Positions 2,737-9,483 of a DNA stretch of 9,483 nucleotides are shown here, in pieces. Each line of letters begins with the position of its first letter. Within the stretch, counting starts at the first letter, position 1. Where the stretch lies: NCBI GenBank assembly GCA_002350855.1, contig DEFM01000020.1, positions 43,600-53,082 on the forward strand. The letters run 5' to 3'. The stretch is from Prevotellaceae bacterium UBA2852 (GTDB taxonomy: Bacteria > Bacteroidota > Bacteroidia > Bacteroidales > Bacteroidaceae). A program made the translations under genes and the position numbers. Below the pieces are notes generated by a model. That model worked only from the letters and a program-made list of their open reading frames with translations. It was not told the origin of the DNA and searched no databases.

Positions 2737-2844
2737 CTTCACGCTTCATTTTTCACCTTCCCCCGGTACAATCACAAAGTTCTTGGGAGCGTTGCCCCAA
2801 GCGTCGGCAAGCCGAACGATAACACACTTCACACTTCACCTTCC
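2737..2844. repeat. Imperfect direct repeats CTTCACNCTTCA...CCTTCC bracketing a 65-bp stretch
   Basis: Copy A is at 2737-2761 and copy B at 2827-2844. They match as CTTCACRCTTCA + CCTTCC, with a 7-bp insertion (TTTTTCA) in copy A. Read on the minus strand, each copy gives GGAAGGTGAA-type sequence followed by TGAAGNGTGAAG. Copy B covers the stop codon of the P5-like gene. Copy A covers the next in-frame stop. Confidence 0.6.
2746..2835 (-). other. In-frame coding-like tail after the P5-like stop codon
   Basis: Directly after the TGA of the P5-like gene, the same frame stays open for 29 more codons to a second TGA at 2746-2748. Its translation includes RLADAWGNAPKNFVIVPG, which looks like real protein sequence rather than random intergenic DNA, with mixed hydrophobic and polar residues and well-used codons. 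It could be a lost C-terminal tail of the P5-like protein, a remnant of another gene, or chance. I do not recognise the peptide. Confidence 0.35.
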
Positions 2845-3402
2845 TTCGTACGGTTTGAAAAGTATATCCCAAGCCTTTGAGATGCGGTAGCGGAGGTATT
2901 CGTCATCGTATTCCTGGTTCACTCCGTTCTCCACGGTAGCCATGCCGAGGACGATGTTGCACCAGAGACCGCGGTCGAGGTCGGGAGCAGTGATGCGTTG
3001 GGCAGGAGTGACGTTGGCATAGACGCAGACACGGCGGGCGTAAGCTTTGACATTGTTGCCGTCGCTGCCCGGTGCCCAGCGCCCTATTACCTCACGCACG
3101 GAGCGCAGGCGGTAGTTATAGTAGTAGTTGTTGAGCAGGCGTAGCATGGCGCGGAATCCCCAAGTTATGTCGGTGAACTGGCAGAAAGTGCCGTCCTTCT
3201 GCTTCTCGCACATCCCTTTCCATTTCGTCTTGGTCAGACGTATATTGCCCGGGTTGTTGTTACGATAGCCGCGAGTGACGGGCAGTTTTCTCATTATGGT
3301 TCTTTCGAGCCATGACTGGTAGGAGGGCGAGAGCATCTCGTCGTTCCACCACGACTTCTGTTGCAGCTTTTCTATCTCTGCTTGTAGATCTATGTATTGC
3401 AT
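2836..3402 (-). CDS. P5-like / phage-type peptidoglycan hydrolase-like protein
   Basis: This 188-residue protein carries GYRNNNPGNIR near residues 45-55, the hallmark of a phage-associated family usually named 'structural protein P5' in Bacteroidetes and similar to lytic-transglycosylase-type virion proteins. Other family-like blocks are FCQFTDITWGFRAMLRLL (73-90), with the common 'F.s...G.RA' pattern, and IGRWAPGSDGNNVKAYARRV (106-125). No signal peptide or membrane segment is visible. It is the last gene of the primase/ATPase unit, separated from it by about 100 bp made almost entirely of 9-bp repeats that end 8 bp before this ATG. That leaves no conventional ribosome-binding site. Cell-wall hydrolysis is inferred from the family; catalytic residues were not identified. 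Confidence 0.72.
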   Translation of the reverse strand: MQYIDLQAEIEKLQQKSWWNDEMLSPSYQSWLERTIMRKLPVTRGYRNNNPGNIRLTKTKWKGMCEKQKDGTFCQFTDITWGFRAMLRLLNNYYYNYRLRSVREVIGRWAPGSDGNNVKAYARRVCVYANVTPAQRITAPDLDRGLWCNIVLGMATVENGVNQEYDDEYLRYRISKAWDILFKPYEGR

Positions 3403-3410
3403 ATAATTAG

Positions 3411-3508
3411 AGGTTTAAGAAGTTCAAAAAGTTCAAGAGGTTTAAGAAGTTCAAAAAGTTTAAGAAGTTCAAAAGTTTAAGAGGTTCAAGAGGTTCAAGA
3501 GGTTTAAG
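3411..3508. repeat. Eleven-unit tandem array, consensus ARGTTYAAR
   Basis: Eleven units run without interruption: AGGTTTAAG, AAGTTCAAA, AAGTTCAAG, AGGTTTAAG, AAGTTCAAA, AAGTTTAAG, AAGTTCAAA, an 8-bp AGTTTAAG, AGGTTCAAG twice, and AGGTTTAAG. Variation is confined to purine and pyrimidine transitions at fixed positions. The array fills the gap between the primase/ATPase stop and the P5-like start. The last unit contains the primase/ATPase stop codon (3504-3506), so the array begins inside the gene. Confidence 0.95.
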
Positions 3509-5789
3509 TTCTGTTCTTTTTAAAACTGTATACTGTATACTGTATAACATAGCCGCGGCTGATCCAGGTGTTAATCATCTTGTTGGCACGCGAGGCTTCG
3601 TTGCTGAGTCCCTGCTGCTGACGCACACGCTTGGCATCGTCGAGAGTGAATTCCTCAGGCAGAAGTTCGAGCAGATTTCGCGGACCGCGTTTGCCGAGGC
3701 GTGAGCCGTCGCCGTTGGCAGCTTTCTCTATGTCTTCGCCGAAGAACTGCATCTTGCACCACAGGTCGTAGTTCAGACTCCAGCGGACGAAGTCGTCGAT
3801 GCTCTTCTCCCATTTCCTGCCATTGGCCACGTAGAGCACACATGCTTTCAGCCATGCTATCACGCAGGCTCTGTGACTGAGGTTCCAGTAGGTCTCGTTT
3901 TGCGAGAGCCGGGCAAATTCGGCACATTCCTGCTGCAGCTTTCTGGCGAGTCGGTACGCCTGCGGACAGTCTATAAGTCCCCGGGCAGAAGTGAGGTTGT
4001 CGATATATGGTTTGAGAGCTTCGTCAAACTCAGCTTCATACTTGCCGTAAACAGGTTGGTCACAGCCTATCTCGGGTTCGGGGATGGTGCAGAAGTTGAT
4101 ACGTGAGATTGGACCGTCGGTGAGGACCCGGCTGAAGAAGCGGCGTCCCTTCAGTATGGTCGTGCAGGCGTTCCAGTTGAAGCGGCACTGCGGACGTGCG
4201 GTTACGGATTGTGCTCCGACACGTGTCTGTCCGTATTCTGCTCCCGGGTCGAACGCCAGGCACATGAGCTGGAAGTGCTGCTTGCCTGTCTGACCTTTGA
4301 GCTGCTCGAAGAGATCCAGTTCATTCAGTTTAACATACACAAAGTGTCCTTCCGCCTCGTCCATACGTGTCACCAGTGCTGGTTTGGTCATATCCGGGTC
4401 GATTATCTGTATTACCAGTCCTTCAGGACGTACCATCTTGTCCTTGTTGGCACCTTTGCGTTGACAATCCTTCTTCCACTCAGCCTCACGGCGTTCGTTT
4501 TCTTCATCACGTCGCTTAATGTCGGCCATGATGTGGCGGATAGGTTCGTCTATACAACCTTTACCTACACCCGTTCCTGCCATCAGGCAGTTCATGAGAG
4601 TGGCTTCGTGAGCCACGTTGTCGGTATAGTTGAAGCGCACGTCACACAGATGGGTGGCAAGAGGTGGGAACACCGCATGAGCCACAGCTGCCTTGTAGTG
4701 CTCTGGAGTGTTTGAGGTGAGCAGCTGGATGAGTTTTGGCAGTCTTGACGGGATTCTTGGTGGGACGTCCGAGTTGTTGCTTGTGCCCTGCTCTTCGTTT
4801 TCAGTCAGTCGCTGGCTCTTGGTAAACAGTTGTTCCTGATACCTCATCAGTCGCTGCGAAGGCTTGGTGTAGTTGTTGTAGAAGTCATCTACCAGCTGCT
4901 GGATGTTTTGGTCGTTCCAATGCTCAGGCATCATCTCTGCCAGCATGGAGTTTGTCTCCGTCTTCGACAAGAGAGGTGTGCATCCGCTCAGCAAAATCTT
5001 CACCGAGGTGTGACGACTGCCCTCCTTGATGAAGTCCCTGTCCTCCAGCCCCTTCTCCGCCATCACACCGCGTACGATGAATCTTACGCGCTCCTCTGGT
5101 TTGGCTGCTTTCAAATCCTTGGATTGAGGCTTGGACTCAGCCTTAGGTTCTTCCAGCTTACGTCCGTCCACATCGAGACCACGCATCAAGAAAGCCTCTC
5201 GGCGTTCCTCCAGCTCCTCCTGTGCGATAGCTTTCAGCCAGCCTTCCGAGCGGAAAATCTCTTCGCTCTTGCCGGTCATGAAAATGAATCTCTCAGGCGT
5301 GGTGCACGACTCATCATAAGGAACCTCAATCTCTTCGCAAAACTCCTTTTGCGCCTCGGCTATGGTCTTACCCAGAGGCAGACGCAGCCAGATATGTACC
5401 TTGTTGCGAGCCGAGCGGTCCATGCGCAGAATCAGGTCCTTCCATTCCGAATACTCGTCCCTGGTCAGCTCCAGTGTACGCTTCACAGCCTGATCCACCA
5501 GCTCCATATCGTCCACATCCACACAAGTAATGAAGGTGAAAGCCTCGGGAACGATGTCAGCCTGCGCTCTGTGGTTGTTTCTGAACTGCGAATAGTGAGG
5601 GCAAAGGAAAGGAAGGCTATTCTTCAGTTTCTCGTTGCCGCTGCGAATGTCGGCCACCATCTCGGGCAGCCAGTTTGCGGAGAGCAGGTTTTCCACCTGC
5701 TCTGCCGTCATAGCTTCAGCATAGCCTCTGTTGTTCTTCTTGCGTTCGGCATAATGCTGCGTATTTCCTGCAAAAAATAATGTGTCCAT
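3504..5789 (-). CDS. VirE-N (BT4734-like) primase fused to DUF3987-like ATPase
   Basis: This 761-residue cytoplasmic protein probably primes and drives replication of a mobile element. Residues 1-200 resemble the BT4734/VirE-N domain of the archaeo-eukaryotic primase superfamily, with the metal-binding-like CVDVDD (89-94), a VHIWLRL strand (131-137) supplying the motif-II-like His, and RFIFMTG (167-173). A charged linker (about 200-230) leads to an ATPase-like region with the P-loop LMAGTGVGKG (402-411), an acidic VKLNELDLFEQL block, and RRFFSRVLTDGPISRINF, as expected for DUF3987-type proteins. The C-terminus (WISRGYVIQ) resembles a winged-helix tail. The final residues are encoded by three ACTGTAT repeats, and the stop lies in a 9-bp array. 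It starts 3 nt after the upstream gene. Domain names are from motif reading only. Confidence 0.8.
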   Translation of the reverse strand: MDTLFFAGNTQHYAERKKNNRGYAEAMTAEQVENLLSANWLPEMVADIRSGNEKLKNSLPFLCPHYSQFRNNHRAQADIVPEAFTFITCVDVDDMELVDQAVKRTLELTRDEYSEWKDLILRMDRSARNKVHIWLRLPLGKTIAEAQKEFCEEIEVPYDESCTTPERFIFMTGKSEEIFRSEGWLKAIAQEELEERREAFLMRGLDVDGRKLEEPKAESKPQSKDLKAAKPEERVRFIVRGVMAEKGLEDRDFIKEGSRHTSVKILLSGCTPLLSKTETNSMLAEMMPEHWNDQNIQQLVDDFYNNYTKPSQRLMRYQEQLFTKSQRLTENEEQGTSNNSDVPPRIPSRLPKLIQLLTSNTPEHYKAAVAHAVFPPLATHLCDVRFNYTDNVAHEATLMNCLMAGTGVGKGCIDEPIRHIMADIKRRDEENERREAEWKKDCQRKGANKDKMVRPEGLVIQIIDPDMTKPALVTRMDEAEGHFVYVKLNELDLFEQLKGQTGKQHFQLMCLAFDPGAEYGQTRVGAQSVTARPQCRFNWNACTTILKGRRFFSRVLTDGPISRINFCTIPEPEIGCDQPVYGKYEAEFDEALKPYIDNLTSARGLIDCPQAYRLARKLQQECAEFARLSQNETYWNLSHRACVIAWLKACVLYVANGRKWEKSIDDFVRWSLNYDLWCKMQFFGEDIEKAANGDGSRLGKRGPRNLLELLPEEFTLDDAKRVRQQQGLSNEASRANKMINTWISRGYVIQYTVYSFKKNRT
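3525..3545. repeat. Three perfect ACTGTAT units inside the 3' coding end
   Basis: Three exact 7-bp copies of ACTGTAT lie within the last 15 codons of the primase/ATPase gene, where they encode IQYTVYS. They stop 16 bp before the ARGTTYAAR array, so the gene's 3' end consists of two unrelated tandem repeats in succession. Confidence 0.85.
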
Positions 5790-5792
5790 AGG

Positions 5793-6173
5793 TTATTTCT
5801 GATTTATTCTGGTTAATAGTTTCTTCGCAATCGCCCTTGCCTGACGTGTGAGCTGTGCAGGCAGTTCGTCCACAAGCTGCTCAGGCATGGAGAAGATGAA
5901 GTAGTAGCGGCCGTTGCGGCCAAGCGACAGCGAACTGTTGTCCTCGCGGAAGAGAGGTCTGCCACGTTTGTGGCGCATCTTCTCCGTCATGTAGATGTTG
6001 CCGTCGCGCATGCCCTGCACACGGAACAGGCCGTTGAAAGGTTCCGTCTCCACATCCTCCATGCAGGCGAAGTCCGCCACCCTCTGACCAGTTTCCAACT
6101 TAGATACGATCATCATACCTTCTACTGATAACACTCTCTCTTTGATGTTTGTTTTATTATCTGAATTATTCAT
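5793..6173 (-). CDS. Conserved-looking hypothetical protein, 126 aa
   Basis: I do not recognise this protein. It is 126 residues long, soluble-looking, with no signal peptide or membrane segment. A polar N-terminus is followed by GLFRVQGMRDGNIYMTEK (about 49-66), the basic stretch RHKRGRPLFRE, and GRNGRYYFIFSMP, which read like alternating beta strands. The C-terminal third is a basic helix (PAQLTRQARAIAKKLLTR). The basic content would suit nucleic-acid or partner binding, but that is inference. The stop is only 3 nt before the primase/ATPase start (TAA CCT ATG), so the two are almost certainly co-translated and probably act together. The start was chosen at the ATG after an in-frame upstream stop. 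Confidence 0.75.
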   Translation of the reverse strand: MNNSDNKTNIKERVLSVEGMMIVSKLETGQRVADFACMEDVETEPFNGLFRVQGMRDGNIYMTEKMRHKRGRPLFREDNSSLSLGRNGRYYFIFSMPEQLVDELPAQLTRQARAIAKKLLTRINQK

Positions 6174-6178
6174 GATTT

Positions 6179-6263
6179 TGAGTTGAATTTTTGCGAGAGA
6201 AGTTTTCGAGAAAGGCGCCTACATCATTGCTGATGCTCAATTGATTCCCTCGACTTCAACTCA
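6179..6263 (-). promoter_or_regulatory. Inverted repeat in the 5' leader of the 126-aa/primase operon
   Basis: TGAGTTGAA (6179-6187) and TTCAACTCA (6255-6263) are perfect 9-bp inverted repeats. They enclose 67 bp that contains a smaller hairpin, CATCA/TGATG with loop TTGC (6222-6235). The proximal arm ends 5 bp before the ATG at 6173, so pairing in the mRNA would cover the ribosome-entry region. Either translational control or a protein-binding site is possible; neither is proven. Confidence 0.4.
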
Positions 6264-6286
6264 GGTTGTTTTTTTCTTTTAACATG

Positions 6287-6319
6287 TAATTACCATATAA
6301 TTACCCATGAATTATCATT
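6287..6319. repeat. Degenerate AATTACC-type tandem repeat
   Basis: Three decayed copies, TAATTACCATA, TAATTACCCATG and AATTATCATT, follow one another. They are AT-rich and imperfect, and look like an old version of the short-unit arrays elsewhere in the window. Confidence 0.45.
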
Positions 6320-6399
6320 AATGAAAAATTGCTTTTAGCCATTATCTTCACGACTCGGCAATGCAGATGCGAGCATCGTATTGCTCTCGCTGTTCTGAT

Positions 6400-6430
6400 A
6401 ATTCGTGTTCAATTCGTGGCAATTCGTGTT
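6400..6430. repeat. Three AATTCGTG-core repeats abutting a stop codon
   Basis: The units AATTCGTGTTC (11 bp), AATTCGTGGC and AATTCGTGTT (10 bp) share AATTCGTG and end exactly where the stop codon of the OB-fold-like gene begins (6431-6433). I believe this motif is common between genes in Bacteroidales, but that is from memory. Confidence 0.75.
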
Positions 6431-6715
6431 TTATTTTTTTACTTTCACGATGTCAGTCACAAGGATTTCCTGAAACGTCTGTTCCTGGTATTCGTGGGTT
6501 GAGAATCGCATGGTAGCAACCACGATGTCGCCCTCCTGGAAGCGGCACTCAGCCAGGTTGCCGAGCATTGCCCCTACGAATTCATTTTCAAACTTCGAGC
6601 CGCCCAATTCCCTTAGCACGATATTGCACTTGCGGGTATAGCCCGACTCCGATTTCTGACTCTGTACGTTGAAGGCCTCGCCCTGCCGTACCACTTTTAA
6701 GATTTTTGTTTCCAT
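6431..6715 (-). CDS. Small OB-fold-like protein, possible ssDNA-binding (94 aa)
   Basis: This 94-residue protein has the strand-rich layout of an OB fold: a short first strand (TKILKVVRQG), YTRKCNIVLRELGG, then EGDIVVATMRFSTHEYQEQT, and a final strand (FQEILVTDIVKVKK). The 'GD.V.......Y....F....V..I' pattern resembles small single-stranded-DNA-binding or DUF3127-like proteins. The family was not confirmed and no ssDNA contact residues were mapped. It lies upstream of the primase/ATPase gene on the same strand, which would suit a replication accessory role. It has its own Bacteroidetes-type promoter about 70 bp upstream, and a hairpin is possible in the leader (6743-6763). AATTCGTG repeats follow the stop immediately. 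Confidence 0.65.
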   Translation of the reverse strand: METKILKVVRQGEAFNVQSQKSESGYTRKCNIVLRELGGSKFENEFVGAMLGNLAECRFQEGDIVVATMRFSTHEYQEQTFQEILVTDIVKVKK

Positions 6716-6782
6716 AACGGATTATTCTGCATCCAGCTACCCGAGTTGTCAACGCGACGACTCTTCGTCCGAATTGCTGGTG

Positions 6783-6814
6783 CAAAGATACAGCACAGAA
6801 AAAGCCTCTGCAAT
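6783..6814 (-). promoter_or_regulatory. Bacteroidetes-type promoter for the OB-fold gene
   Basis: On the minus strand, ATTG (6811-6814; consensus TTTG) is followed by a 20-bp spacer and TATCTTTG (6783-6790), a perfect match to TAnnTTTG. It would start transcription near 6776, about 60 nt before the ATG at 6715. The -33 element lies inside the terminator hairpin of the preceding operon. Confidence 0.7.
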
Positions 6815-6834
6815 AAATTGAAGCAGAGGCTTTT
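6799..6834 (-). terminator. Rho-independent terminator of the three-gene operon
   Basis: A perfect 12-bp stem pairs AAAAGCCTCTGC (6800-6811) with GCAGAGGCTTTT (6823-6834) over an 11-nt loop. Read on the minus strand it ends GGCTTTTTC, 67 bp after the stop of the 146-aa frame. The opposite strand also has a T-run, so it could be bidirectional. Confidence 0.88.
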
Positions 6835-6901
6835 AACTTAAAGAATAATAAAGAAAAATAAAGATTTATAAAGAATTATAAAGGCGATTGCAATTCCGAC
6901 T

Positions 6902-7312
6902 TTACATATTATCTTTTTTTAGCGCCTGAAACCGTTCCACAAGGGGAGATATTTCCCTGTGATCGTAGCCGGCATCCGAGTTGTTCACCCAACTACTCCA
7001 GTTCGTAGCGTTCAAGGTCAGCTGGTAGCGTTCATTCATCCATTTCAGATCAGCTATAGGCAGCATATTAGCATCCTTGGCCGCCCTGACAGGCAGCAGG
7101 ATATATTTAGCAGTTTTCTTCTTGTCTATAGCATCCTTGACCAGTTCGTCAAGCAAATTCAGAACACACTCTTCAGTCTTGCTACCCTCCTTAGTAGCAT
7201 TCCCACATTTCTGATAACACACCTCACCGTTGTTCACGGCAATAATCTGCGCACCGCTGAGGTCTGCACCTTTGAACAGACCTTCGAGGTTTATGCATGG
7301 ATTCCCTTCCAT
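6902..7312 (-). CDS. Hypothetical protein, third gene of the 8188-6799 operon
   Basis: I do not recognise this protein. From ATG 7312 it has 136 residues; an ATG ten codons further up (7342) would overlap the preceding gene by 26 nt. I prefer 7312 because it leaves a 4-nt gap after the upstream stop. It starts MEGNPCINLEGLFKGADLSG, followed by a hydrophobic strand (AQIIAVNNGEV), two cysteines near VCYQKCGN, an acidic helix (EECVLNLLDELVKDAID), and YILLPVRAAKDANMLP. There is a tryptophan-rich segment near NWSSW. It has no signal peptide or membrane segment. It is the last gene before the terminator, so it probably works with its two operon partners. Confidence 0.75.
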   Translation of the reverse strand: MEGNPCINLEGLFKGADLSGAQIIAVNNGEVCYQKCGNATKEGSKTEECVLNLLDELVKDAIDKKKTAKYILLPVRAAKDANMLPIADLKWMNERYQLTLNATNWSSWVNNSDAGYDHREISPLVERFQALKKDNM

Positions 7313-7316
7313 ATTG

Positions 7317-7736
7317 TTACTGATATTGTGAATGATATACATTACCTAAGTTCGACGCAACCACCTGGTCTGCTTTACCAACACCTATTGATGAAGTGGC
7401 GGCAGGATTGTTGATGAACTGAGCGATAGGCATTTGCTGACGACTTGCCAGTTCAGCTTGCTGACGATTACGAATCTTGATAGCTTCCACTAATATAGGT
7501 TTAACAAGCCTAACCACAGAAGGCCACCAATCTTCAGTTTCATAAAGGTCGCAAACAACCCTCCAATGATCTTGAGCCTTATCAACACCATACATCTCAA
7601 TCTGCTCCTTTACCCATGCACAGATATTCGCATATCCTCCTACAGCCACAGCCCCTTCAGCCCCAGCAGAAACTGGAGCTTTAACAACGTCTGAATTGCC
7701 AGACGGATATGTGGGGAAAACAGCTTCTGTTGGCAT
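7317..7736 (-). CDS. Hypothetical protein, second gene of the 8188-6799 operon
   Basis: This 139-residue protein is unrecognised. Its N-terminal 35 residues are low-complexity (Ala, Gly, Val, Pro, Ser) and probably unstructured. A central helical domain follows, with ICAWVKEQIEMYGVDKAQDH and the tryptophan- and acid-rich VCDLYETEDWWPSVVRLVKP, then a charged helix (EAIKIRNRQQAELASRQQ) and a flexible tail. The layout suggests a small helical adaptor or binding domain between disordered ends, but no function can be assigned. It starts 21 nt after the upstream stop. Confidence 0.75.
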   Translation of the reverse strand: MPTEAVFPTYPSGNSDVVKAPVSAGAEGAVAVGGYANICAWVKEQIEMYGVDKAQDHWRVVCDLYETEDWWPSVVRLVKPILVEAIKIRNRQQAELASRQQMPIAQFINNPAATSSIGVGKADQVVASNLGNVYHSQYQ

Positions 7737-7757
7737 TGGGTTGAGTGGGTTATTCAG

Positions 7758-8162
7758 TCAGGGTTCTACATCATCGGTTTTCTTCTCTTTCCTCTTGTTG
7801 ACACGCGGCTTCATGAAAAATGCCTGCCCCATGAGTTCTTCGTCAAGAGCAGTCTGGCGCACCAGGTCGAACATAATATTATTGTTCTCATAATCCATGC
7901 CAAGCATGTCGAACATCATCTTCGCCGGAACATAGAAGTAACCGCTCGATTCCTTGATGGAGAAAGCGTCCTCGCACGGCTCATTTGTCAATATAAGGTA
8001 GAGAATGTCCTTTTCATCGTCTTGCGCAAATTTCGCATACTTTCCTGACGCTAAATCCAACGCCTTACCTGTTTCCTCTGTAAATCCGAGCCTTCCAGAG
8101 TGCTGGATGGTTGCTTTCAGTTTTGTTGTAAACTGTTTTGCGCTTAATACTTTAATTGCCAT
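7758..8162 (-). CDS. Hypothetical protein, first gene of the 8188-6799 operon
   Basis: This 134-residue protein (from ATG 8162; a TTG two codons upstream is less likely) is unrecognised. It begins MAIKVLSAKQFTTKLKATIQ, then HSGRLGFTEETGKALDL, and a strand pair around DILYLILTNEP and SSGYFYVPAKMMFDMLGMDY. The C-terminus is strongly charged (KPRVNKRKEKKTDD). No secretion signal or membrane segment is seen. A perfect Bacteroidetes promoter sits 26 bp upstream, giving a leader of only about 19 nt, so this gene leads a dedicated three-gene transcript. Confidence 0.78.
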   Translation of the reverse strand: MAIKVLSAKQFTTKLKATIQHSGRLGFTEETGKALDLASGKYAKFAQDDEKDILYLILTNEPCEDAFSIKESSGYFYVPAKMMFDMLGMDYENNNIMFDLVRQTALDEELMGQAFFMKPRVNKRKEKKTDDVEP

Positions 8163-8187
8163 AATCAATCAGTTATTATTTTTATCG

Positions 8188-8390: not shown

Positions 8391-8428
8391 AATAAAAAAT
8401 CCCCGACATCCACAACGGAATGTCGAGG
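8391..8428 (-). terminator. Rho-independent terminator of the four-helix gene
   Basis: Read on the minus strand, CCTCGACATTCC, loop GTTGT and GGATGTCGGGG form a stem with one wobble or mismatch and one bulge (8401-8428), followed by ATTTTTTATT (8391-8400). It lies just after the 22-unit array, so the array falls between stop codon and terminator. Confidence 0.85.
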
Positions 8429-8436
8429 AAATTATT

Positions 8437-8634
8437 TCTATAGCTTCTATAGCTTCTATAGTTTCTATAGCCTCTATAGTTTCTATAGTTTCTATAGCCT
8501 CTATAGCTTCTATAGTTTCTATAGCTTCTATAGCTTCTATAGCTTCTATAGTTTCTATAGCTTCTATAGCTTCTATAGTTTCTATAGCCTCTATAGTTTC
8601 TATAGTTTCTATAGCCTCTATAGCCTCTATAGCT
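8437..8634. repeat. 22 perfect 9-bp units TCTATAG(CT/TT/CC)
   Basis: Twenty-two uninterrupted units differ only in their last two bases: CT, TT or CC, never TC. In order these are CT CT TT CC TT TT CC CT TT CT CT CT TT CT CT TT CC TT TT CC CC CT. Each unit contains the 6-bp palindrome CTATAG. A 73-bp segment (8435-8507) recurs exactly at 8552-8624, 13 units away. The last unit supplies the stop codon of the four-helix gene. The array lies between that stop and the terminator, so it should be transcribed. Confidence 0.98.
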
Positions 8635-9379
8635 TTGCGGCTTTCTTGAGCCGCTCTATTTCTTGCAGTTGCTGATTGTAGGCATTGAGAGCACGCTGCT
8701 TCAAGTCCTCGTATTTTGCTTTCCACTCAGCGGCCTGAGCTTGAGCTTGAGCCAGTTGTTGCTGCAAGGCAGGCACAGACTGCTCCAACTCTGCAAGACG
8801 TTTGTCCTGCTGCTCACGAAAGCCCGTGCGAGCCTTGTGCATACGCTCCTTAATACCTCCCTCCGTCACAAACAAATGCTCCAGAGACTTCATGTATTTG
8901 TTCATCATCGTGTCAACCTGATAGCAAAGCGTCAGCCCGATATTCGCCATCTCCTCAGCCGACCATTGATTGAAGAATGGTTCGTAGTCGTCGAGCTGGT
9001 TGTGACTCTTGGTAAAGTCCTGCATGGGCTGGTAACGCTCATGGCCTGGAGTCCATAAACTGAGATGACGGCTGCGGAGGAAGTCATCATAATCAGAGCG
9101 CAACTCACCAATGCTCCCTCGGGCGGCATTGAGGAGCTTCAGTTCCATCTCGGTAGAAGTCTTGCCGTCCTCGCTCCCCTCCACTATATTCTGCTTACCG
9201 GAACGGGCTGCCTGTACCATCTGATCAACGGTCCTGTCGCCATACTGGGGCAAAAACCTCTCGCAGAAGACATAAGTCATCTGGTAGAGCACCACCGTCT
9301 TCTGGTAGAACCATAGGTCTTGCCACTTAGGCACTTGTCTAAAAATGCTCTTAAAGGGTTTATCGCTATTCCCAGCCAT
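8627..9379 (-). CDS. Four-helix-bundle 'suffix' protein with C-terminal coiled coil
   Basis: This 250-residue protein (ATG 9379; GTG 9382 possible) resembles the Bacteroidetes four-helix-bundle suffix family, whose N-terminal half is related to the S23/Avd-type bundle of 23S rRNA intervening sequences. Visible signs are WQDLWFYQKTVVLYQMTYVF, the motif RSGKQNIVEGSEDGKTS near residues 60-76, ELKLLNAARGSIGELRSDYD, and CYQVDTMMNKYMKSLE. Residues 185-250 form a long Gln/Ala/Glu-rich coiled coil (LAELEQSVPALQQQLAQAQA). No enzyme motif, signal peptide or membrane segment is seen. Related bundles are basic and bind nucleic acid or a reverse transcriptase, but no RT gene is present. The codons for the final KL-stop come from the flanking array, and a matching array lies about 20 bp upstream. 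Confidence 0.82.
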   Translation of the reverse strand: MAGNSDKPFKSIFRQVPKWQDLWFYQKTVVLYQMTYVFCERFLPQYGDRTVDQMVQAARSGKQNIVEGSEDGKTSTEMELKLLNAARGSIGELRSDYDDFLRSRHLSLWTPGHERYQPMQDFTKSHNQLDDYEPFFNQWSAEEMANIGLTLCYQVDTMMNKYMKSLEHLFVTEGGIKERMHKARTGFREQQDKRLAELEQSVPALQQQLAQAQAQAAEWKAKYEDLKQRALNAYNQQLQEIERLKKAAKL

Positions 9380-9398
9380 CACTTTAATATTTTTTAGG

Positions 9399-9483
9399 TT
9401 GATAGTATTGATAGTTTCTATAGTTTCTATAGCCTCTATAGCCTCTATAGTTTCTATAGCCTCTATAGCCTCTATAGCTTCTA
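9399..9483. repeat. Upstream TCTATAGNN array, cut by window edge
   Basis: Two diverged units (TTGATAGTA, TTGATAGTT) lead into seven perfect units with endings TT CC CC TT CC CC CT, then a truncated unit at the window end. It has the same orientation and unit family as 8437-8634, and 37 bp (9444-9480) are identical to 8599-8635. It ends about 20 bp before the four-helix start codon, so any promoter for that gene lies within or beyond the array. Confidence 0.95.

Follow-up and report, generated by a model that had tools for sequence, protein, structure and literature searches.

The stretch considered here, called the window throughout, comprises 9,483 nucleotides of contig DEFM01000020.1 (positions 43,600 to 53,082, forward strand; assembly GCA_002350855.1) from Prevotellaceae bacterium UBA2852. 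Near its end, on the minus strand, lies a gene for a four-helix-bundle protein of the S23/IVP type, with its ATG at 9379 and its stop codon TAG at 8629-8627, which is bracketed by tandem arrays of a 9-bp unit. The gene, its arrays and the parts of both that matter below are:

8627-9379, minus strand: four-helix-bundle gene, 250 aa (S23/IVP fold, TIGR04258 suffix and a long C-terminal helix)
9092-9319, minus strand: N-terminal S23/IVP region, residues 21-96
8816-8959, minus strand: TIGR04258 'four helix bundle suffix' domain, residues 141-188, from an NCBIfam scan whose numbering begins one codon earlier
8897-8923, minus strand: residues 153-161 of helix 141-173, with several positions that track the repeat core (Y153, T157, N160 and K161 in the window protein)
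8437-8634, plus strand: 3' array, 22 units TCTATAGYY (CTATAGARR on the gene strand), overlapping the stop codon
9417-9483, plus strand: 5' array, seven complete units (9417-9479) of the same type as in the array at 8437, continuing past the window end
9399-9416, plus strand: two degenerate units, TTGATAGTA and TTGATAGTT, seen in the sequence at the gene-proximal end of the 5' array
8400-8429, minus strand: intrinsic-terminator-like hairpin (12 pairs) with a T run; on the gene strand it comes immediately downstream of the 3' array

An earlier note on this DNA had described arrays in the same orientation on both sides of the gene, one beginning inside the stop codon and the other ending ~20 bp before the start, and the sequence confirms this: the stop codon is part of the array unit 8626-8634, and the 5' array, with its degenerate units counted, reaches to ~20 bp from the ATG. 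Twenty-two consecutive TCTATAGNN units occupy 8437-8634 and at least seven more lie upstream of the TIGR04258 gene, all on the plus strand, with Tandem Repeats Finder scores of 309 for the 3' array and up to 127 for the 5' array. In 29 of 29 units the first seven bases, TCTATAG, are invariant, while the last two vary and are always pyrimidines. Unremarked by the note was a dyad: the core CTATAG is identical to its reverse complement, a property that would suit a DNA-binding oligomer. Three simpler origins of the arrays were ruled out: chance, as the window contains 30 copies of TCTATAG where 100 first-order shuffles average 0.36; a coding repeat, as the open frame EAIETIEAI is expected from a 9-bp period without stops in one frame; and a CRISPR array, as the units are too short (9 bp, two bases varying between C and T) and unique spacers are absent. 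Because of the terminator-like hairpin just past it, the 3' array probably belongs to the transcript of the gene as a 3' untranslated region (UTR); terminator-like sites with a T run number two in the window compared with 1.1 expected from shuffles, and the fold z-score is -4.0.

With 61.7 bits against TIGR04258 (cut-off 40), the window protein is a member of that family; it also scores 33.5 bits against TIGR02436, above the cut-off of 24, and 32.3 bits against PF05635, just below the cut-off of 33.8. The four-helix-bundle fold of solved S23/IVP members is present in the protein, of which the AlphaFold2 model has a predicted local distance difference test score (pLDDT) of 81.4. No nuclease, transposase or polymerase domain was recognised in it. 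Scans of Pfam and NCBIfam matched no transposase family to the window gene up to E 0.01, and no reverse transcriptase family to any of the eight window proteins scanned; a search of viral contigs returned no relatives of the protein, and Rfam gave no match in the window at its gathering threshold. A reading of residues 181-232 as resembling a basic leucine zipper (bZIP) was abandoned: it rested on non-significant PDB sequence matches (E 0.4-0.5), and columns 176-200 track the repeat core no better than average, so that it is not relied on.

The association of gene and array recurs beside homologues. A scan of genome contigs with 22 homologues as queries yielded at least 571 loci encoding relatives, of which the best 80 were analysed. 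In flanks of 150 bp (score 30/50, period 8-11), arrays were found in 92 of 156 homologue flanks versus 47 of 1226 flanks of other open reading frames (ORFs) in the same loci; among shuffled flanks, 1 in 380 reached the threshold. The best period of the 92 array flanks is 9 in 66 cases, 10 in 20, 8 in 4 and 11 in 2. The two-sided arrangement of the window, which the earlier note had made central, is shared by a minority at this threshold: among the 76 loci with both flanks usable, 23 carry arrays on both sides and 44 on one side only. Among full-length genes for which both flanks are available, 59 of 78 are accompanied by an array on one side or both. TAG serves as the stop codon of 43 of 76 genes, as expected if the array overlaps it. 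Thresholds differ between analyses (30/50 for the 80 loci, 30/45 for the comparison with classical genes described below and 28/45 for the paralogue permutation), and flanks below 100-120 bp, depending on the analysis, were dropped before counting. At least seven of the 80 homologues (L001, L005, L011, L013, L030, L056 and L079) are found close to a contig end, no more than a few hundred bases away. Short-read assemblies may tend to break at the arrays, and metagenomes may under-count genes of this kind.

The unit differs between homologues, with palindromic cores such as CTATAG, TCTAGA or CCTAGG, and several comparisons tie it to the adjacent gene. The word content of the upstream and downstream flanks of one gene agrees with a cosine of 0.359 (76 loci), compared with a mean of 0.224 and a maximum of 0.275 in 2000 permutations. 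Repeat profiles follow protein distance, as the earlier note had anticipated (Mantel rho 0.369, n=72; maximum of 1000 permutations 0.18), whereas control segments 2 kb away do not (rho -0.02, n=63). The pairing is with the own gene and not with a paralogue. Thirty-five of the 80 loci come from 35 genomes, which contain 91 TIGR04258 matches, 1-6 per genome; 81 of these were fetched and ten, with weak or odd frames, were left out. Paralogues of one genome can have different cores, for example CTATAG, CCTAG and ACTAG in genome G007. In the 19 genomes with at least two paralogues (43 genes), similarity to the own flank is 0.375 versus 0.16 to a same-genome paralogue, and a within-genome permutation (mean 0.255) attained the observed value in 0 of 5000 runs, which rules out genome composition as the cause of shared units. 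Proteins below 180 aa were excluded from this permutation and from the residue analysis below.

Within the unit, the palindromic core stands out. In 60 arrays of the suffix class, i.e. beside genes with the TIGR04258 domain, conservation is 0.94 in the six columns surrounding the best dyad and 0.72 elsewhere in the unit, and the palindrome score is 0.83 versus 0.60 for shuffled columns. A score of at least 0.85 is reached by 32 of the 60 (4.6% after shuffling), with CTATAG as the core in 15, TCTAGA in 10, CCTAGG in 5 and ACTAGT in 2. The contrast between core and spacer was measured at the position picked for its palindrome score, a choice for which 24 classical arrays serve as control: the same procedure found in them neither a dyad (0.48 vs 0.46) nor a difference in conservation (0.84 vs 0.82). 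That neighbouring units vary in the spacer and keep the core suggests that the core is recognised and that more than recent slippage is at work.

One residue of the suffix domain tracks the core best. Core labels were assigned from fixed flank word counts, by which 65 of 124 proteins were labelled and 59 remained unlabelled. Across 156 scored columns, excess mutual information with the core is greatest at position 160 (1.38 bits; the next 1.03), which is N in 19 of 20 CTATAG genes, C in 13 of 14 CCTAGG genes and M, T, L or V in 22 of 24 TCTAGA genes. The association holds in L025 and in L055/L058, which are placed apart from their core-mates on a tree of the N-terminal region (no support values); L014 and L078 resemble their own class less clearly, and L078 (CCTAGG label, 8-bp period) has T160. 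On the same tree the core label changes only nine times, versus at least 28 times in 300 shuffles, so that shared descent explains much of the signal elsewhere in the protein.

Arrays with the same cores are also dispersed through the genomes. Triplets of CTATAGNNN occur in 12 of 35 genomes, with a maximum of 142 overlapping matches in one genome, TCTAG at period 9 in 20 and CCTAG at period 10 in 11, and each type is found mostly in genomes with a gene of the corresponding core: CTATAG arrays are present in 9 of 10 genomes with a CTATAG gene versus 3 of 25 without (Fisher 3e-5), TCTAG arrays in 12 of 12 versus 8 of 23 (2e-4) and 10-bp CCTAG arrays in 7 of 7 versus 4 of 28 (5e-5). These tallies were made by hand on 35 genomes picked from the 80 loci and include the genes' own flanks, to which all CTATAG matches of G003 and G009 and the sole CCTAG match of G025 belong; a pattern read backward gave zero matches in the CTATAGNNN triplet scan and, in the other scans, a few in G005, G017, G030 and G046. 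Across 201 genomes of one family, 17 of 26 with CTATAG arrays have a homologue at E 1e-30, versus 42 of the 175 others (P 5e-5). Of 24 dispersed arrays from two genomes, picked from the first-listed places and judged with mechanical ORF calls, 21 lie between ORFs, one across an ORF end and two inside an ORF.

Array families also meet one another. In G052 (L414, near 3560-3720), CTATAG nonamers sit within an inverted heptamer array, in its loop, which gives the impression that one repeat family was inserted into another. The window itself contains a second family of 9-bp arrays, AAGTTCAAG-like (period 8-9), at 1-56 and 3409-3508, beside neither of which a four-helix-bundle gene was found; they are possibly dispersed arrays of another paralogue in the same genome. 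Directly after a TTCAAG-type array, at 3525-3546, three tandem ACTGTAT heptamers follow, a heptamer thus adjoining a nonamer.

Classical S23/IVP genes (~120 aa) appear, from their flanks, to be a sister form with mostly 7-bp, non-palindromic units and two inverted flanks. From 102 loci, six without a detected ORF and those with too little flank were dropped and two suffix-type genes were left out; the 92 that entered comprise 54 from Bacteroidota, 27 from a second phylum, that of G026 (locus L060 being labelled Kiritimatiellae), and 11 from plasmids, nine of them cyanobacterial. The upstream flank matches the reverse complement of the downstream flank (at least 19 of 24 bp) in 31 of 54, 13 of 27 and 5 of 11 loci, respectively. 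Mismatched pairs do so in 5 of 159, 1 of 80 and 1 of 32 cases, and matches in direct orientation are less frequent (5 of 54, 2 of 27 and 2 of 11). The suffix class differs in that direct flank matches prevail, 43 versus 22 inverted, with 11 ties. Arrays on at least one side were found in 24 of 54, 7 of 27 and 6 of 11 classical loci, and among 48 classical array flanks the period is 7 in 30 and 8 in 13. An Azospirillum copy of the S23/IVP element sits inside 23S rRNA with flanks that read as heptads; other classical copies lie between cas6 and cas4 or between cas10 and a cmr3-type gene, in agreement with the IVP genes in cas loci reported in the consulted part of PMC3936711. Three S23/IVP genes inside cas operons of cyanobacterial plasmids (L353, L355 and L357) have repeat-bearing flanks, and the published co-occurrence with cas genes may accordingly reflect insertion and not function.

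Indications of movement as a unit come from these classical relatives. Ten plasmid records cover at least 80% of one locus: three have the cassette, six, which are 97-98% identical, lack it, and one has a truncated cassette (relative H32, L392). The array-ORF-array block measures 423 bp (409 bp in a second pair) and is flanked by the 5-bp direct repeat GTAAT, which is single in the empty site (junctions read in two of the six). Among four occupied/empty sites on plasmids, such a clean 5-bp direct repeat was seen at one only; the remaining three also show the block absent, yet in the 'empty' record there are 11, 16, 16 or 193 bases without a match. ORF-less elements of ~180-220 bp possess the same terminal arrays as the S23 cassettes, and one of them, used as a query, was found at 90 places in 42 plasmid records, with a query coverage of 66-100% among the 25 matches listed and at least one match at a four-helix-bundle gene. 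Cyanobacterial plasmid elements of this ORF-less kind (L394-L396 and L398, near 600-800) combine the heptad ends of the S23 cassettes with a strongly folded core, which in L394-L396 matched no Rfam family. In the serC-serA gap of four close relatives, two genomes hold intergenic cassettes of 480 and 493 bp, and the other two have 18-19 bp that read as about two heptamer units. At a suffix-gene site in G052, a break is seen on one side only, at the array edge, with two-unit traces in two of three relatives; at the cas6-cas4 site, a relative without the gene carries another insert.

Taken together, the gene and its arrays probably form a cognate pair of protein and repeat that follows the logic of a REPtron, described in the consulted passages of PMC6006769 as a tnpA_REP/RAYT gene flanked by its REP sequences: the gene is flanked by, and specific for, one dispersed family of short repeats. 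As far as sequence comparison reaches, pairing, co-variation, exclusivity within a genome, dispersal and a core more conserved than its spacer are all present. The protein may recognise the palindromic core, as DNA or RNA, in the form of a dimer or larger oligomer, probably via the helix carrying residues 153-161 of the suffix domain, and may act as a recognition and annealing or recruiting factor, while host replication or repair, or a reverse transcriptase, would copy array units into new intergenic sites; reverse transcription is the main alternative for the copying step. Both the inverted flank pair of the classical genes and the palindromic core of the suffix genes would allow the two flanks to pair. 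The earlier note had proposed a self-contained cassette that spreads: dispersed arrays with the same core and the occupied and empty sites of the wider family speak for spreading, but movement as a unit is supported only for the classical S23/IVP relatives.

Several observations weigh against the cognate pair. For the suffix subfamily, no empty site that is clean on both sides was found. Nine of the 76 loci have no array at threshold on either side, although degenerate CTAG arrays are visible by eye in four of these (L044, L046, L068 and L077), and 19 of 78 full-length suffix genes lack an array at 28/45. Palindrome scores are below 0.85 in 28 of the 60 suffix arrays and below 0.7 in 16. Nine of the 26 genomes with CTATAG arrays have no homologue at E 1e-30, so a close homologue in the assembly is not required for arrays to persist or to arise. 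N160 is likewise found in 15 of the 59 unlabelled proteins, some with quite different units, and there is thus no one-to-one code. Finally, arrays could grow partly by replication slippage alone.

A much broader view, which we hold to be slightly less likely than not, is that S23/IVP four-helix-bundle genes both make and maintain a large class of short tandem repeats in bacteria. Every such gene would then be an autonomous copy of a minimal mobile element with tandem-array ends (inverted 7-mers in the classical form, 9-10-mers with palindromic cores in the suffix form), accompanied by ORF-less derivatives and dispersed solo arrays; one element family, moving without a known transposase, would embrace the intervening sequences of 23S rRNA, the IVP genes reported in cas loci and the cyanobacterial and Xanthomonas heptamers, and the suffix domain would carry a readable code between helix and core.

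Among other explanations, an RNA element has to be considered most seriously, although it appears unlikely. The arrays would be transcribed UTRs that fold, alone or with each other, the protein would bind RNA, as at the terminal stem of the 23S intervening sequence, and any movement would proceed via RNA or reverse transcription. The terminator, the strong RNA fold and the neighbours of 22 dispersed arrays, which are codirectional in 15 cases, convergent in seven and divergent in none, suit such an element. In the suffix class, however, the RNA duplex between upstream and downstream flank is barely stronger than between mismatched loci (median -37.9 vs -34.2), with 11 of 76 loci below the 5th percentile of mismatched pairs, the missing reverse transcriptase family among the eight window proteins scanned offers no help, and the tracking of the core by a residue fits DNA equally. 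The classical class separates better by the same measure (24 of 92 below the 5th percentile).

Autoregulation, in which the arrays would be operator- or iteron-like sites for their own gene, the dispersed copies a regulon or decoys, and expansion the result of slippage only, is improbable. The positions of the arrays, one ending ~20 bp before the ATG and the other starting within the stop codon, would speak for it, as would a conserved and often palindromic core; yet it is difficult to see how an array at the 3' end could serve as an operator, and the 24 dispersed arrays in the two genomes include no case between divergent genes, where promoters would be located. Another intergenic gap of the four relatives compared at serC-serA is occupied by three distinct families of array and one short repeat, which has the look of turnover rather than of a conserved regulon, and the spacers differ between neighbouring units, unlike fresh slippage. 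The view that intergenic gaps gather short tandem repeats in some other way, the four-helix-bundle genes merely inserting there, would accommodate the 47 of 1226 control flanks that also score and the different arrays in the serC-serA operon gap of different genomes, but it is strongly disfavoured and highly improbable, as the identity of the unit goes with the protein, with the gene inside a single genome and with one residue of the protein.

The remainder of the window contains two plus-strand genes, which we take to encode aspartokinase and diaminopimelate decarboxylase, and, between these and the array gene, seven minus-strand ORFs (2836-8168). The seven gave no Pfam or NCBIfam match above cut-off, apart from one weak match to DUF5633 below it; the block is possibly a degenerate integrated element.

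Among known systems, the intervening sequence (IVS) of 23S rRNA is related by its protein: in the consulted passages of PMC4990558, an S23p ORF lies within complementary flanks, and in Coxiella tandem heptamers precede it, as heptads flank the Azospirillum copy. The window gene differs in lying outside rRNA (no Rfam match) and in its suffix domain, its long C-terminal helix and its direct nonamers with a palindromic core. For the Avd protein of diversity-generating retroelements (4dwl, 8ub8), the eight window proteins scanned include no reverse transcriptase family; no search for template and variable repeats (TR/VR) was made, and the window stops at 9483. Heptameric repeats of Xanthomonas and Nostoc are dispersed, tandem and mostly intergenic, those of Xanthomonas lying near the 5'-neighbouring ORF, often in convergent pairs; the parts of PMC4692102 consulted for these features do not mention XCC0516, S23 or four helix. 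Structure 2gsc (Xcc0516) comes from Xanthomonas campestris, and a link between these heptamers and S23/IVP genes is proposed by the present analysis. It may offer an origin for tandem repeats that have, in the text consulted, been described without an associated protein.

In the open-licence PMC literature, as far as titles, beginnings of abstracts and passages of part of the matches go, no description of the pairing of gene and array was found. That many relatives have a repeat of their own, often dispersed in the genome, suggests an overlooked family of repeat-spreading genetic elements. The pairing provides a function-level handle on a protein family named for its place in some rRNA genes, and the pairing of one gene with one core, together with residue 160, is a directly testable proposal. 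The closest parallel is the REPtron. According to the passages of PMC6006769, the two have in common one gene per repeat type, flanking repeats, dispersal, a supposed co-evolution of gene and repeat and several types per genome, and relatives of the window gene are indeed flanked by, and co-vary with, a dispersed repeat. They differ in the protein, which has an unrelated fold and matches neither the HuH/Y1 transposases nor another transposase family, and in the repeat, which consists of tandem 9-10-mers (or 7-mers) where REP sequences are described as palindromes of 20-40 bp. With tandem nonamers and without a transposase domain, the system is REPtron-like, yet not a REPtron; if its arrays spread in trans, it would follow the logic of a mobile element without a recognisable transposase.
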